Shown: positions 9,784 through 40,145 of the stretch, piece by piece
Position numbering within the stretch: the first letter of the stretch is position 1
Layout: each line of letters begins with the position of its first letter
DNA from: Lactobacillus equicursoris DSM 19284 = JCM 14600 = CIP 110162
GTDB lineage: Bacteria; Bacillota; Bacilli; Lactobacillales; Lactobacillaceae
Direction of reading: 5' to 3'
Length of the DNA stretch: 49,467 nt
NCBI RefSeq assembly: GCF_001434815.1
Contig: NZ_AZDU01000009.1
Location: 1-49,467, forward strand
Translations under genes and position numbers: made by a program
The notes under the pieces: model-generated
The model's input: the letters and a program-made list of their open reading frames with translations, nothing else
The model's database searches: none
What the model was told of the DNA's origin: nothing

Positions 9784-9881
9784 GTGTAGTTTTTTGTAAT
9801 GTTTTCTGAAAAGCCTTTATTTTTTTACTTTTAGCGCTACAATTACGGTTGAAAAACAAGAGTAATATTTGGAGGCATATC

Positions 9882-10169
9882 ATGTTTTTCAATAAATCAA
9901 TGTCTAAAGAAAATGAACAATTTAAAGAGAAGCTGGAAGAATTAATCAGCGATCCTGCAGTCAAGAGCAATTCTGCTTTGAGCGAATTGCTTTCAGGCGC
10001 GGTCAAGAAGTGCGAAAAAAACGAATCTATTCGTTCCATCGCTTCTAGCCTGGACTTACAAATCAGAAGTCACTTTGCCGAAAATGAATTGCCAAAGAGC
10101 GTTAAGGCTTTGCAACTTGACTTAGCCAAGTACACTGCTTTTGGCGCAAATGGCGTTGTTTTGAAGTAA
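9882..10169 (+). CDS. Small helical protein, bacteriocin-immunity-like
   Basis: A 95-residue soluble, charged, all-helical protein with no signal or membrane segment. Size, helix pattern and the closing stretch DLAKYTAFGANGVVL resemble enterocin A-type immunity proteins (EntA_Immun family), which bind the mannose-PTS receptor complex to protect the cell from class IIa bacteriocins. This is a resemblance by eye, not a proven assignment. The start at 9882 is chosen for its ATTTGGAGG ribosome site; an in-frame ATG at 9849 lacks one. No bacteriocin gene is adjacent, so if correct it is an orphan immunity gene. A TACAAT box at 9838-9843 may be its -10, and a shared terminator follows. Confidence 0.6.
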   Translation: MFFNKSMSKENEQFKEKLEELISDPAVKSNSALSELLSGAVKKCEKNESIRSIASSLDLQIRSHFAENELPKSVKALQLDLAKYTAFGANGVVLK

Positions 10170-10226: not shown

Positions 10227-10895
10227 CTAAATTGTAATGGTAATCACGGTTAAAACGCCGTTTAATACCACCAGGTAAAGCGGCAGCCACAAGGTTTGGG
10301 TGCTCAGGTAGCTCCAGGCAAAAATCATCCCCAGCAGCAGGTTAGCCGTAAAGATGATCGGCACAAACTGGAAGGTCAAAACCGCGTACAAAAGGCCTGA
10401 GCAGAGAATTCCAAAGTAAGCGACAGCCTTTTTCTCATTTCTAAACCAATAGTTGAACAAAAAGCCGCTGCACAGGTACTCTTCTAAAACCGGCAAGACG
10501 ATCCCGTTAGCCAGCATCACAAACCAGTAAAGGAGGTTTGACGAGTGCTGCATGTAGGCCATCTGCAGGCCCGATGCCGGTGCTCCTTGGTAGAGCTGCA
10601 AATAGGAAACCCCGATCCGGATCAAGGCCACCGCGACGCTTAAGATCAGGGTCTGCTTGTAGCAGCTGGTCCAGGCTAAATTATAGCTTAAGTCAAAGAA
10701 GCGCTGCTCTCTTTTAAAACGGTAAACGTAGAAAAGGCTGCACATGGCAGCCACAATGAGGAACAAGATGACATGCCAGATGCTGATGGCACTGCTCCTC
10801 AAAGCCAGGTTATCGGTCAAGGCCACCATGATAAAAAAGATCAAATAGACCAGATAGCGAATCATGTTCCCTTCTCTAGATCTCGGCGTATTCAT
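10227..10895 (-). CDS. CPBP-family intramembrane protein with degenerate active site
   Basis: A 222-residue polytopic membrane protein of about six or seven helices, related to CAAX/CPBP intramembrane glutamic endopeptidases. Some of these act as bacteriocin self-immunity proteins. The first motif is present as EEYLCSG (138-144), but the arginine of the canonical EExxxRG is a serine. At the second motif (YAVLT, about 170-174) the usual histidine is threonine. The third motif keeps N212 (VLNG) without the preceding histidine. The fold is probably kept while protease activity looks doubtful. The start has a GTAGGAGGGTAGGAG ribosome region, and an extended -10 (TGGTATAAT) lies at 10932-10940 on the minus strand. 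Confidence 0.75.
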   Translation of the reverse strand: MNTPRSREGNMIRYLVYLIFFIMVALTDNLALRSSAISIWHVILFLIVAAMCSLFYVYRFKREQRFFDLSYNLAWTSCYKQTLILSVAVALIRIGVSYLQLYQGAPASGLQMAYMQHSSNLLYWFVMLANGIVLPVLEEYLCSGFLFNYWFRNEKKAVAYFGILCSGLLYAVLTFQFVPIIFTANLLLGMIFAWSYLSTQTLWLPLYLVVLNGVLTVITITI

Positions 10896-34078: not shown

Positions 34079-34549
34079 ATGAAAAGCAAAAATCTTTTTC
34101 AATCCGTAAAGGATGTACTAAATGGTAAAATCGCTCTAAGTATCTTTACCTTTTCTACTACCTTCATAGCTGGTTTTGCGGCAGCGACTGTTGCCTTAGG
34201 GCTCAAGGGCGGTTATCATAACAGCCCCATAGCCGAAGCTATTATCTGCGGACTTATCCTCTTGTTCTATGGTATCTATGGCACATACAAGCTCTACAAG
34301 TTAAACAAGGTAAAAGTCAAGTTGACTACTAATAAATTTAGAGAGAGATTGTGGAATATTTTAACTGGAAAGGGAAGTTTGAGCATTATTGCGTTTTCTG
34401 ATTCTTTATTTGCTGGCTTTGCAGTTGGGGCTATCGCCTTTTGGAATAGAAGCACAGGCAATTATGATCCAACCATTGAATTGGCCATAATCGCCATTTT
34501 CTCTTTTGGCTTTTCAATTGAAGAATTCTACAAGCTCAACAAAAAATAA
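34079..34549 (+). CDS. Four-helix membrane protein with internal duplication, unknown
   Basis: A 156-residue protein made of two similar halves, each with an amphipathic start, two membrane helices and a basic or YKL end. Half one (about 9-77) runs DVLNGKIALSIFTFSTTFIAGFAAATVAL to YKLYKLNK. Half two (about 91-156) runs NILTGKGSLSIIAFSDSLFAGFAVGAIAF to EEFYKLNKK. The matching G-K-x-x-LSI and F-AGFA positions show an ancient tandem duplication. I do not recognise the family. GGAGGAG lies upstream of the ATG, slightly far. It has its own promoter and terminator and is more AT-rich than purA. Confidence 0.8.
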   Translation: MKSKNLFQSVKDVLNGKIALSIFTFSTTFIAGFAAATVALGLKGGYHNSPIAEAIICGLILLFYGIYGTYKLYKLNKVKVKLTTNKFRERLWNILTGKGSLSIIAFSDSLFAGFAVGAIAFWNRSTGNYDPTIELAIIAIFSFGFSIEEFYKLNKK

Positions 34550-35771: not shown

Positions 35772-35849
35772 GCCAAAAATTTCAGTATAAAACTTGTGAA
35801 ATTGTGAAAAGATGCCATTTAAGCATCAAAATTGACCGCTTAGGCAAAT

Positions 35850-35880
35850 TTGGTTTCTTCTCAATTAATCGCATTATAAT
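35850..35880 (+). promoter_or_regulatory. Promoter entering the peptide/quorum-sensing island
   Basis: A perfect TATAAT at 35875-35880. The best -35 (TTGGTT) is 19 bases away and poor, consistent with an activator-dependent promoter, but the activator site is not identifiable by eye. Confidence 0.5.
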
Positions 35881-35936
35881 AACGATTGTGATCAGAAGAT
35901 CATCCAAATTCAATTTGTGACCGGGAGGGTTTAACT

Positions 35937-36087
35937 ATGGAAAAGTTACTGGTCTACCTTAAAATTCGCTTTAATAAAATTACTAATTAACATTGGCGAG
36001 TATTCTAGCGCCAAAAATCTTGTTGAAAATATTGATAATCCAGAGTATAAAGAGTTACTAGATAGTGAAATAGATTTTCTATTGTAA
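35937..36087 (+). pseudogene. Small peptide gene, frameshifted next to its start codon
   Basis: The ATG at 35937 has a strong GGGAGGG site seven bases upstream, but its frame gives only 17 residues (MEKLLVYLKIRFNKITN). The plus-one frame is open from 35935 to 36087. Dropping the single G after ATG would give a 49-residue product starting MKSYWSTLKFALIKLL and ending DSEIDFLL. It would be a small protein with an amphipathic N-terminus, of unknown family. It is directly followed, 16 bases later, by the 73-residue membrane protein. Either the short 17-residue peptide is real or the gene is broken. Confidence 0.55.
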
Positions 36088-36103
36088 ATAGGAGAACACG
36101 GTT

Positions 36104-36325
36104 ATGGAATATGTAATTTTGTTAGTAGTTGGCTTGCTACTTATTGTAGGTGGTGCCTTTGCTTTTAAACAAACTAAGAAGTATCTTGAGTTAAAAACAA
36201 ATAGTGGCAATTATTCTAATGATCAATGGTGGGGATTTGCTCTATGGGGTGGATATATTGGAGCAGGCATCTTGTCACTAGTTGGTGCTATTTTAATTAT
36301 TGTTTCTGTAATTTCAATGCTATAA
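36104..36325 (+). CDS. Small two-helix membrane protein, unknown
   Basis: A 73-residue protein with a strongly hydrophobic N-terminal helix (YVILLVVGLLLIVGGAFAF), a polar loop with lysines and NDQWW, and a second helix (GAGILSLVGAILIIVSVIS). TAGGAGAAC precedes the ATG. Size and topology resemble bacteriocin immunity or accessory membrane proteins, but I recognise no family. It lies between the frameshifted peptide gene and the GG-leader peptide and is closed by a strong hairpin. Confidence 0.75.
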   Translation: MEYVILLVVGLLLIVGGAFAFKQTKKYLELKTNSGNYSNDQWWGFALWGGYIGAGILSLVGAILIIVSVISML

Positions 36326-36335
36326 ATTAATCATT

Positions 36336-36377
36336 AATAGTATTATTTAGGTAACTACCTAGGTAACGCTATTTTTT
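36336..36377 (+). terminator. Long terminator-like hairpin before the GG peptide (possible attenuator)
   Basis: AATAGTATTATT pairs (one mismatch, several G-U) with GGTAACGCTATT, and the inner TAGGTA pairs with TACCTA. T6 follows at 36372-36377. It ends only 22 bases before the next start codon, leaving no room for a separate promoter downstream. Confidence 0.75.
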
Positions 36378-36398
36378 ATTAGAGTCAGGAATCTTTTT

Positions 36399-36593
36399 AT
36401 GAAAAATTTAGATAAAACAGAGCTTCTAAAAATTAAAGGCGGTACTACACAATCTCAGCTTTCTGCTTATATTACCACCAACTTTATTAACATATGGGGC
36501 TTTAATACTGATAAGAAAAGCAGTCAATTATACAAGAATTTAGTTAAAGCTTTTAGAAAGCAACGAGTAAATATCAATGAGCAATACATTTGA
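36399..36593 (+). CDS. Double-glycine-leader peptide (bacteriocin or induction factor precursor)
   Basis: A 64-residue precursor. MKNLDKTELLKIKGG is a textbook double-glycine leader (hydrophobic residues at -4, -7, -12 spacing), normally cleaved and exported by a PCAT ABC transporter. The mature part would be 49 residues, starting TTQSQLSAYITTNF and rich in lysine and asparagine. It overlaps the start of the kinase by 17 bases, the order found in three-component systems such as plantaricin or ComCDE loci. That makes an inducing-peptide role plausible, although the mature part is long for a pheromone and could be a bacteriocin. The SD sequence is weak (CAGGAA). No transporter is in the window. 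Confidence 0.75.
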   Translation: MKNLDKTELLKIKGGTTQSQLSAYITTNFINIWGFNTDKKSSQLYKNLVKAFRKQRVNINEQYI

Positions 36594-37928
36594 ATTATTT
36601 AGCATACTTGCCAATATTATACTAAGTTTGATTGTAGACTTATCTATTTTTACAAAAACATCTATGGTCAAGTTTACGTCATCCCAGAAAATTCTTGTCA
36701 CTGCTTTTTATATTTTTTGCTTTATAGCCTCCGTATTAATCCCGTCTAATGTAGTCGTCAATATTTCGATTACAATTGTAGAAATTCTTTTCTTCACACT
36801 ACTTGGTTTAAGAAACACAAAAGATAAATTTCTAATTCTAGGTGCTGCGCTTCTCCTAGGAATTTTTGACTCCATTACTATCATCCTTTCTAACTTAATT
36901 CTTTTCTCTTTCCCATTTTGGACTCTAGTAATTTAGATTTCTTTACTAATATTGCGATTATTATTATTAGTTACCTACTACTCCTTAAAATTATTCCCAA
37001 AATCATTACTAATCTAACTAGCACCAATAAAAAAGTTTTTATTGGTGTTTTGGCGTATATATATATTAGTTCGACGGTTCTTAACGCGTATGTTTTAAGC
37101 GATACCAAACCAACCGAGGTCATCATTGTATCTTTAGCTTTATTGTTTTTGCAATCGATTTTTATTTTGATCATGTATATTTCTTTAGTCGAAATACAAA
37201 AGAAGTTGCTTTCCCATACTCAACAAAAAGAACTGCTCCAGGAAAAGCAGGAACTAGAAGAATACTCATCTTATCTAGATCAAAACGAGGATGATCTTCG
37301 CAGGTTTAAGCATGATTATCAAAACATTCTTAATAGCTTAAAAATTGACGCTCAAGAAGGCAATGTCAAAGGCGTTATTGACAAATTAAGTGAATATACA
37401 AATAGTCATTTTAACGAAGAAGCATTACGAAAGTACAAAGACTTAAATCATATTCATATAAAGGAACTTAAAAGTATAGTATTTAGCAAACTGACACAAA
37501 TGTACAATTTAGGAATTTTATATAGCTTTGGATGTGAATCCGAAATTTATGAAATTCCCCAAAATATCGATTTACTTGATTTGGTGAGAGTGATTGGTAT
37601 TACTTTTGACAACGCAATTGAGGCAGAAACGGATTATTTTAACTCCAATTTCCTTCAGAAACAAGACTTACGAATTGAAGCCATGTATTATCAAGATCAT
37701 GACGACTTTGAGTTTATGATCAGAAATCGAATTCCTAATTCTGATATTACTTTGAGTCAGTTAACTGAAAAAGGATATACGACTAAAAAGCAACATCCTG
37801 GCCTCGGATTAGCAAACGTTAAGCAATTTTCTCAAAAATACGACAATGTCATAATTGACTATCATATCAAGGATACTTGGTTTATTTTCAATCTAACCAT
37901 CCTGCCAATAGATGAGGTAACAGACTAG
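36577..37928 (+). pseudogene. AgrC/ComD-type sensor histidine kinase split by a frameshift
   Basis: The first frame (36577-36936, 119 residues) holds about four membrane helices. The second (36918-37928) holds two or three more, a coiled coil (LLQEKQELEEYSSYLDQNEDD), the H box FKHDYQNIL (H132 of that frame), the N box FDNAIEA and the G box PGLGLANVKQF. Joined, they give about 450 residues, the normal size of an HPK10 kinase for peptide pheromones. Only one extra base between 36894 and 36934, for instance in CCC at 36912-36914, is needed to join them. The second frame's only nearby start is a TTG without an SD sequence. The kinase is therefore probably broken here, or produced as two parts. 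Confidence 0.82.
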
Positions 37929-37930
37929 CT

Positions 37931-38692
37931 ATGAAGTATCAAGTATTTATTTGTGATGACAATCAAGATACAATTGTTCAGCTTAAGCACATGCTATTAA
38001 TCGCTGCTTTTCGATTATCTGATAACGATTCGGTAACTTTTAACGTATTTGGGCAAGCGACAACATACAAAAGTGCTATCAATATTTTACAGAAGACAAT
38101 ACCTACCGGTGGAATCTATTTCCTAGATGTTGAGCTTGGTAAAAATATTGGTAAAGATAACGGATTTGACTTAGCAGAATACATTAAGCAAAACGATCCA
38201 AAAGCTCAGATTATTTTCGTTACAAGTCATGCTGACCTTTCTATCATCACTTATCAAAGACGATTGGGGCCTATCGATTATATAGTAAAAAGCTCTAATG
38301 TAGCAGAGTTAACTACGCGTATTTCAGACACCTTAAAATCAGCCATTAATTATTTGGAAAACTCAAGCTCAGAATCTGCAAACTTCTTTACTTATAAAGC
38401 TGGATATGAAGTAAAGAAAATTGCTGCAGATAATATTTACTATATTTCAACTACCGGCAACTCCCATAAATTAGAACTTGTTCATACCAACGGAATTAGT
38501 CAGTTTATCGGTAGTATCAGCAAAATTGCAGAAACGGCACCTTATCTCTTGCAAATCAGTCAATCATGCTTAATTAATCCCAAAAAAGCTGAAATTGATT
38601 ATCAGTCGCACAAAATCACCTTCCCTAACGGTGATATTCAATACTATTCACGAAAAAACAGTCATATGCTTAGAAAATATTTTTCAAAATGA
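37931..38692 (+). CDS. LytTR-family response regulator (AgrA/ComE type)
   Basis: A 253-residue regulator that begins two bases after the kinase stop. The receiver domain has the acidic pocket D9/D10 and the phosphorylation site D66 in YFLDVELG, plus a conserved lysine region (YIVKSS, about 117-122). The C-terminal LytTR DNA-binding domain covers about 148-250 (KKIAADNIYYISTTGN, HKITFPNGDIQYYSRK). These regulators bind paired direct repeats and activate bacteriocin or competence genes. This gene is intact although its kinase is split. A terminator follows. Confidence 0.92.
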   Translation: MKYQVFICDDNQDTIVQLKHMLLIAAFRLSDNDSVTFNVFGQATTYKSAINILQKTIPTGGIYFLDVELGKNIGKDNGFDLAEYIKQNDPKAQIIFVTSHADLSIITYQRRLGPIDYIVKSSNVAELTTRISDTLKSAINYLENSSSESANFFTYKAGYEVKKIAADNIYYISTTGNSHKLELVHTNGISQFIGSISKIAETAPYLLQISQSCLINPKKAEIDYQSHKITFPNGDIQYYSRKNSHMLRKYFSK

Positions 38693-38723
38693 TCAGTCTA
38701 TTTAATTCTATTAAGTATAAATG

Positions 38724-38753
38724 AACGCACTCCAAGTCTTGAAGTGCGTTTTT
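38724..38753 (+). terminator. Terminator of the peptide-kinase-regulator operon
   Basis: AACGCACT..CAAG and TTG..AGTGCGTT form a long imperfect stem with a T run. Confidence 0.85.
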
Positions 38754-38769
38754 ACTATTTTAGCAATCA

Positions 38770-38798
38770 TTGAAAATACACAATATTTCCCGTAAGAT
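38770..38798 (+). promoter_or_regulatory. pepW promoter
   Basis: TTGAAA, 17 bases, TAAGAT, 36 bases before the start. Confidence 0.75.
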
Positions 38799-38834
38799 TG
38801 AAGAAGATTGACTAAGAAATAGAAAGGAAAATAT

Positions 38835-40145
38835 ATGACTAAGCACGAATTAAATTCCGAATTGCTGGACCAATTTAGCCGGCAATTTAACGCCGACCCC
38901 AAAAACCAGGTCATCAGCCGGGCAGTTAGCCGGTCGGGCCTCCAAGAAGCGGCCTACAACTCTGCCGCTGAGCACAACCACACCTTTTCTTTAGAGCTGG
39001 ACACTGACAATGTCACCAACCAGAAGCAGTCCGGCCGCTGCTGGCTCTTTTCAACCTTAAATGTTGTCCGCCACAACTTTGGCAAGAAGAACAAGGCTAA
39101 GAACTTCACTTTTTCCCAAAGCTACAACTTCTTCTGGGATAAGATTGAACGGGCCAACTACTTCTACGACCGGATCATCAAGACCGCTGACCGCCCCTTA
39201 GACGACCGGACAGTGCGCGGCTACTTTGACTGGTGCCAAACCGACGGTGGCCAGTGGCACATGGCCGCCTCCCTGATTAAAAAGTACGGCGTCGTCCCAA
39301 CTTACGCCATGCCGGAAAGCTTCAACAGCGAACACTCCGCCGTCTTAGACCAAATCCTGGCTGACAAGGAACGTAAAGATGCCCTAGCCTTGCGCGAATT
39401 AGCCCAAAAAGACGACCAGGAGGCCCTAGAAGCTGCCCGGGTGCGTTTCCTTGGCGATATCTACCAAATCATGGCTACGGCCCTGGGAGAGCCTCCTAAG
39501 ACCTTTGACCTGGAATTTCGGGACGATGACCAAAATTACCACCTAGACAAGGACCTCACTCCCCTTGCCTTTTACCAAAAATACTGTGACACCGACTTAG
39601 ATGACTACGTTGTCTTGGCCAACGCCCCTGACCACCCGCTAAACCGGGTCCTCCACCTGGGCTTTGAAGACAACATCCAAGGCGGCTACCCGAACCTCTT
39701 CATCAATGTGCCGATGGAATACCTGGAACGGGCCACGGTTGAGCAGTTAAAGGGCGGCGAAGCAGTCTGGTTTGGCAATGACGTCCTCCGGCAAATGGAC
39801 CGGAAGACCGGGATGATGGACCTAAAGCTTTACCAATACGACGCTTTGCTTGGCATTGACACCCACTTGTCCAAGGCTGACCGCCTGCGGACCGGGATCG
39901 GCGAATCTTCTCACGACATGGCCATTGTCGGCGCCGACATTGATGGCGGTCACATCCGCAAGTGGAAGGTAGAAAACTCCTGGGGTGACAAGTCCGGCAA
40001 CAAGGGCTACTTCACCATGAGCGCTGACTGGTTCAGAGAATACACCTACGAAGTCGCTGTCCAAAAGCAGTACGTGCCAAAGGATATCTTGGCCCTGCTG
40101 GATACCGCCCCAATCGAACTGGACCCATGGGACTCCTTGATCTAG
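38835..40145 (+). CDS. pepW: Cysteine aminopeptidase of the C1B (PepC/bleomycin hydrolase) family, PepW-like
   Basis: A cytosolic papain-like aminopeptidase trimming peptides imported by Opp. The catalytic residues are visible: Q-x5-C in QKQSGRCWLFS (C69), H360 in SSHDMAIVG and N381 in KVENSWGD. The 436 residues are full length, and there is no signal peptide. It is a tandem paralogue of the next gene, with long identical blocks such as TDNVTNQKQSGRCWLFSTLN (within 58-77). The symbol rests on memory of the pepG/pepW pair of L. delbrueckii, and the two names could be exchanged. Own promoter; GAAAGGAAAA precedes the ATG. Confidence 0.9.
   Translation: MTKHELNSELLDQFSRQFNADPKNQVISRAVSRSGLQEAAYNSAAEHNHTFSLELDTDNVTNQKQSGRCWLFSTLNVVRHNFGKKNKAKNFTFSQSYNFFWDKIERANYFYDRIIKTADRPLDDRTVRGYFDWCQTDGGQWHMAASLIKKYGVVPTYAMPESFNSEHSAVLDQILADKERKDALALRELAQKDDQEALEAARVRFLGDIYQIMATALGEPPKTFDLEFRDDDQNYHLDKDLTPLAFYQKYCDTDLDDYVVLANAPDHPLNRVLHLGFEDNIQGGYPNLFINVPMEYLERATVEQLKGGEAVWFGNDVLRQMDRKTGMMDLKLYQYDALLGIDTHLSKADRLRTGIGESSHDMAIVGADIDGGHIRKWKVENSWGDKSGNKGYFTMSADWFREYTYEVAVQKQYVPKDILALLDTAPIELDPWDSLI

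Follow-up and report, generated by a model that had tools for sequence, protein, structure and literature searches.

A probable remnant of a class II bacteriocin cluster between hsp20 and a pepC-type gene of Lactobacillus equicursoris

The window analysed here, a stretch of 49,467 nucleotides from Lactobacillus equicursoris DSM 19284 (contig NZ_AZDU01000009.1), contains an AT-rich island at positions ∼35775–38843. This island is probably the decayed remnant, namely the regulatory front end, of a class II bacteriocin cluster that arrived by horizontal transfer and has lost its exporter and effectors. All its elements lie on the plus strand, between an hsp20 gene (PF00011, E-value 1.7e-24) and a pepC-type gene (Peptidase_C1_2, 8e-194), and its borders follow from the corresponding locus of genome G068 (L117), which aligns to the window up to position 35774 and again from 38844. 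The G+C content in 1-kb windows is 0.30–0.36 within the island and 0.40–0.54 in the adjoining windows, and third-position G+C is 0.22–0.31 for the island genes versus 0.65 for hsp20 and 0.70 for the pepC-type gene. The island DNA showed no match to plasmid and phage collections. An earlier note on this DNA had described a peptide-signalling island of sharply different base composition. The foreign composition is borne out, the elements that it named are present, oriented alike and either overlapping or separated by short gaps, and a module of a double-glycine (GG) leader peptide, an AgrC/ComD-type kinase and a LytTR regulator is supported.

A match to hsp20 was found in 47 of 61 genomes, and 30 loci were returned, including that of L. 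equicursoris itself. The gap is compact in 20 of the 29 other loci, where the pepC-type gene follows 106–188 nt after hsp20, as measured between tblastn matches. Measured in the same way, the gap is 106 nt in G068, which by hsp20 identity (85%) is the nearest relative. It amounts to 0.65–1.35 kb in six further loci, and in the other three the 1.5 kb fetched contain no pepC. The composition of the island, together with the compact gap in G068, favours a gain in this lineage; ancestral presence with loss is a less favoured alternative. The longer gaps (L118, L124, L126, L127, L128 and L129) hold a transposase-like ORF in L118 (by eye) and related 203-aa ORFs in L126 and L129. One of the three loci lacking a nearby pepC, that of L. 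colini, carries a CAAX-type protease gene, a kinase–regulator pair (both within L047 6008–13457) and greA between hsp20 and pepC. The island and the L. colini pair look like independent arrivals, because the L. colini regulator groups with that of Lactobacillus sp. LL6 (100/99) and not with that of the window. Shared ancestry of the two is unlikely, as the regulator tree speaks against it, with long branches that leave the place of the window sequence unsure. The data point to the hsp20–pepC gap as a recurrent insertion site. Elsewhere in the window, a 156-aa membrane-type ORF with an apparent internal duplication (by eye) lies between purA and greA (34079–34549), where G068 has only ∼0.1 kb.

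The GG-leader peptide precursor (36399–36593) comprises 64 residues, a 15-residue leader MKNLDKTELLKIKGG and a 49-residue remainder. Its ORF runs 17 nt into the start of the kinase gene, which places the peptide at the inducing-peptide position adjoining the kinase gene and suggests that it served as the inducer. The leader resembles those of relatives at the same position, MKKLNEKELSKITGG and MKNLNEKKLVEVKGG. Of 42 kinase ORFs, some of them at contig ends and one broken kinase (L105) counted twice, 17 are preceded within 900 nt by a GG-type peptide; in 13 of these 17 cases the peptide ends no more than 30 nt from the kinase start. Several observations weigh against the proposed origin of the island: 25 of the 42 ORFs, some at contig ends, have no GG-type peptide upstream, the mature part of 49 residues is longer than the inducers seen (21–37 residues; 24 in GaeP), and no sequence homologue of the peptide was found at an E-value of 1e-3 in 59 other genomes. 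The earlier note had set store by homologues and a conserved leader; the leader form, which is like that of the relatives, stands, while the homologues failed to appear. A weak NCBIfam match to EntF-type induction factors (E-value 0.04) is below the cut-off, the PHROGs collection gave a single match (E-value 0.07), and the plasmid search gave none.

The kinase gene is split, as had been noted from the sequence before. Its 5′ part (36577–36936), encoding the membrane domain, corresponds in an alignment to the N-terminal region of ten intact kinases, and its 3′ part (36918–37928), in another frame, contains a HATPase_c_5 domain (Pfam, 2.2e-11). Each of the ten aligned relatives is one continuous ORF across both halves, to which the window kinase aligns only as two out-of-frame pieces that overlap by 19 nt (36918–36936). 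The 3′ part has 336 open codons, retains the FKHDYQN, FDNAIEA and GLGLANV blocks and is 49–53% identical to its three best matches in other genomes. There is thus no continuous kinase with multiple transmembrane segments and a GHKL domain, the break lying between the membrane and catalytic parts. By alignment, this is one gene broken by a frameshift that cuts the membrane domain from the catalytic part. The frameshift could also be an assembly error in this genome of 182 contigs. Six of 53 kinase places listed, the window's own included, were flagged with stops; that of G014 proved open on re-reading, and five others look broken. The two open halves and their 19-nt overlap would agree with a kinase that functions as two separate polypeptides or with programmed frameshifting that rejoins them. 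Inspection by eye revealed neither a ribosome-binding site before the TTG at 36918 nor a canonical slippery heptamer in the overlap, and none of the ten aligned relatives is built in this way, which makes such an arrangement very improbable.

The LytTR response regulator (37931–38692; Response_reg 1.2e-10, LytTR 3.3e-8) is apparently intact, in line with the earlier description. It keeps 41 of the 43 columns that are invariant among 13 relatives (window sequence left out) and departs at residues 14 and 219; in the same test the relatives themselves show 0–9 departures each. Residue D66, which we take to be the phospho-acceptor, is among the columns kept. At an E-value of 1e-20, 24 of 60 other genomes contain a homologue, and the best match by sequence among solved structures is ComE (4cbv, 1.2e-15). 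The branch of the regulator in the tree is long (0.89 versus a median of 0.16). The regulators of L087/L088 and L093/L096, from assemblies named 'uncultured Clostridium' and 'Faecalicatena absiana', are identical (over the stretch compared) or nearly identical to those of Lactobacillus, which suggests that these assemblies are misbinned or contaminated. The regulator gene is followed by a terminator-like hairpin at 38723–38751 on the plus strand (−12.5 kcal/mol, z −3.03) with T-rich sequence after it; the stem was also detected on the opposite strand. The open regulator and kinase 3′ part, with no more departures in the regulator than in intact relatives, count against decay of the island. As a consequence, the decay would have to be recent, or the frameshift an assembly error.

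At the upstream end, the earlier note had listed an unassigned small gene. This was a misreading: the 17-codon ORF at 35937–35990 ends early and is probably not a gene, whereas the neighbouring frame, which is open up to the stop codon at 36085–36087, matches the C-terminus of a glycosyltransferase. The segment 35956–36087 (plus strand) is probably the 3′ stub of a SunS-like GT2 glycosyltransferase gene with TPR repeats. An immunity gene had been considered for the small ORF and was dropped once this match was found. The stub frame is 53% identical over 32 residues to a glycosyltransferase remnant in G007, with 36.6 bits, compared to a best score of 31.6 bits and a mean of 21.0 bits for 100 shuffles of the G007 query. 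With the intact gene of G076 (419 aa), a query that was not shuffled, it shares 34–35% identity over 40–41 residues (31.6 bits). For both queries the stub is the top match across the whole 49-kb window. A weakness of this assignment, and with it of the proposed origin of the island, is that the match is short (32–41 residues) and that the G076 score equals the best shuffle of the G007 query. The intact G076 gene combines Glycos_transf_2 with TPR repeats. Against the SunS model TIGR04195, which has a curated cut-off of 350 bits, G076 scores 73.7 bits and G016 90.4 bits, so that the intact relatives of the stub are classed by these scores as related to SunS and not as SunS or glycocin enzymes. 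At an E-value of 1e-5, relatives are found in three of 75 genus genomes (G076, G016 and G007), each near a GG peptide and a kinase–regulator pair or Peptidase_C39 gene. In G030, a similar remnant (E-value 0.002; about 11400–11760 of L198) comes after an exporter ORF that is shortened. Both this apparent remnant and that of G007 (1553–2083 of L197) lie beside exporter genes, so that decay of this type of glycosyltransferase gene in bacteriocin loci may have happened more than once.

Directly downstream of the stub, positions 36104–36325 encode TM73, a two-helix membrane protein of 73 residues. A G076 protein is 58% identical over 69 residues (E-value 3e-30), and its gene is located directly after the intact glycosyltransferase gene and directly before two GG peptides. 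A profile built from three sequences matches 23 of 75 genomes at an E-value of 0.01 or lower, the own genome included. Six other genomes match below 1e-10, and weaker matches were not counted as relatives. In five of these six (G030, G081, G025, G076 and G014) a homologue of the kinase or of the regulator, a partial one in G014, is located no more than ∼7 kb from a match; none was found near the match in G036. TM73 and its relatives form an unnamed two-helix family that occurs mostly near class II bacteriocin regulator genes, and from position only TM73 possibly has an immunity role. Three of the weaker matches (in G007, G066 and G081) are longer membrane proteins beside dlt-like genes (by eye). 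TM73 has no match among plasmids or PHROGs, and the Pfam matches of TM73 and of the GG peptide are weak and below the cut-off. TM73 itself fits a loose GG pattern, being a helix with glycines, and was not counted as a leader peptide.

The earlier note had placed export and targets elsewhere in the genome. This is not supported, because no Peptidase_C39 (PF03412) exporter, the domain by which a PCAT/ComA-type transporter was searched for genome-wide, was found at an E-value of 0.001 in a genome rated 99.92% complete, and neither was an export accessory protein (TIGR01000). By comparison, 17 of 61 genus genomes are positive for Peptidase_C39. The genome also has no match to Bacteriocin_IIc (PF10439), which is weak evidence, as this model hit one of 14 control genomes and none above the cut-off, and the island holds no second GG-leader gene of normal form. 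The intact appearance of the GG leader and the regulator agrees with the reading of the earlier note, a new three-component system that functions and exports its peptide through a different transporter. The lack of exporter and accessory protein matches and the broken kinase argue against it, and this explanation has very little probability.

Another explanation is that the island has been retained as a listening module. In this case the frameshift would be confined to the strain or stem from misassembly, and the kinase–regulator pair would sense peptides of neighbouring bacteria and turn on immunity-type genes, such as TM73 and an EntA_Immun gene at 9849–10169, and would need no exporter. The intact appearance of the regulator and the two EntA_Immun matches in the genome agree with this, as do kinase–regulator pairs at loci where no exporter was seen in L. 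corticis, in L. kefiranofaciens (kinase with a stop) and in L. colini (same gap). Against it speak the split kinase in the one sequence examined, the adjoining glycosyltransferase stub, which points to decay, and the long regulator branch. In addition, no 9-bp direct repeats (at most one mismatch, 20–23 nt spacing) were found within 220 nt upstream of the small ORF, TM73, the GG peptide or the pepC gene, which is a weak test; among relatives the same scan gave repeats upstream in at least 12 regions, those without repeats not being counted. A retained listening or immunity role is at present unsupported, and we regard the listening module as unlikely. More doubtful still is a receive-only module in which the kinase, intact in other strains, and the regulator would detect the inducing peptides of rivals and switch on TM73 and orphan immunity genes, with no signal or bacteriocin of their own, at an hsp20–pepC site reused across the genus.

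The orphan EntA_Immun gene (PF08951, 1.4e-11; plus strand) lies in another AT-rich patch of the window and adjoins a CAAX-protease-type gene at 10227–10895 on the minus strand (PF02517, 3.1e-11); the second EntA_Immun match is on contig C99. The genome contains four LytTR matches, one with a stop. Besides that of the window, two regulators look intact (on C100 and C97). Each adjoins a kinase-like gene, as identified by search on C100 and by eye on C97, and none of the ORFs in the stretches read around them was flagged as having a GG leader.

Decay of a bacteriocin cluster is the simpler reading, because the kinase is broken in addition to the absence of exporter matches, and accessory and bacteriocin matches are missing as well. 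The absence of an exporter match and the glycosyltransferase stub stand independently of a possible assembly error at the frameshift. That a single genome of the species was available counts against this reading. As judged from relatives and from the part of the gassericin E report consulted (PMC4788914), a Peptidase_C39 ABC transporter of the ancestral system would have carried the GG peptide out of the cell and cleaved it. The membrane kinase would then have sensed the exported peptide and signalled by phosphorylation to D66 of the LytTR regulator, which would have turned on the genes for the peptide, exporter, bacteriocin and immunity. In the present genome this loop should not close and should therefore be silent, since the kinase is cut, only a stub is left of the glycosyltransferase, no exporter was found and no gene was recognised as encoding a bacteriocin. 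What looked like a new signalling island can thus be explained as a decaying bacteriocin locus, a copy of a system whose kind is known, and therefore no search for a hidden exporter is called for. In addition, the analysis connects an unnamed family of two-helix proteins and a SunS-like glycosyltransferase with class II bacteriocin loci of Lactobacillus.

No paper on this locus was found in a search that mostly lacked subscription-journal coverage. What the earlier note took for an undescribed three-component system has the gene order of the three-component systems of class II bacteriocins, namely TM protein, GG peptide, kinase and regulator. Lactobacillus sp. LL6 (L154) has these four in the same order, with a TM protein of 72 residues, and behind the regulator come a PCAT exporter (TIGR01193, 1058 bits), a protein that by eye is of the accessory type, and then GG peptides. 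The window shares this order, including the TM73-type protein and the overlap of the GG peptide with the kinase start; in LL6, unlike in the window, the kinase is intact, and the exporter and bacteriocin-type GG peptides are present. The G076 locus (L150) has the TM73 relative, of 70 residues, and the kind of glycosyltransferase left as a stub in the window, but there the glycosyltransferase is intact, and kinase, regulator and PCAT exporter are in the same cluster. The gaePKRTC genes for gassericin E of L. gasseri EV1461 form a three-component type of system, with a GG-leader inducer, a kinase 2 bp downstream and then the regulator, according to the portion of the report available (PMC4788914). 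The window has the same order of peptide, kinase and regulator. In that portion the mature part of GaeP is 24 residues, compared to 49 in the window, the exporter and accessory genes (gaeTC) follow, a bacteriocin operon and direct repeats are present, and, unlike for the window kinase, no break in the kinase is mentioned (PMC4788914). Bacteriocin operons that lack a dedicated transporter are described for numerous Lactobacillus strains in the sections seen of a further report (PMC6036575); such incomplete operons keep structural and immunity genes, whereas the island of L. equicursoris keeps the regulatory part.
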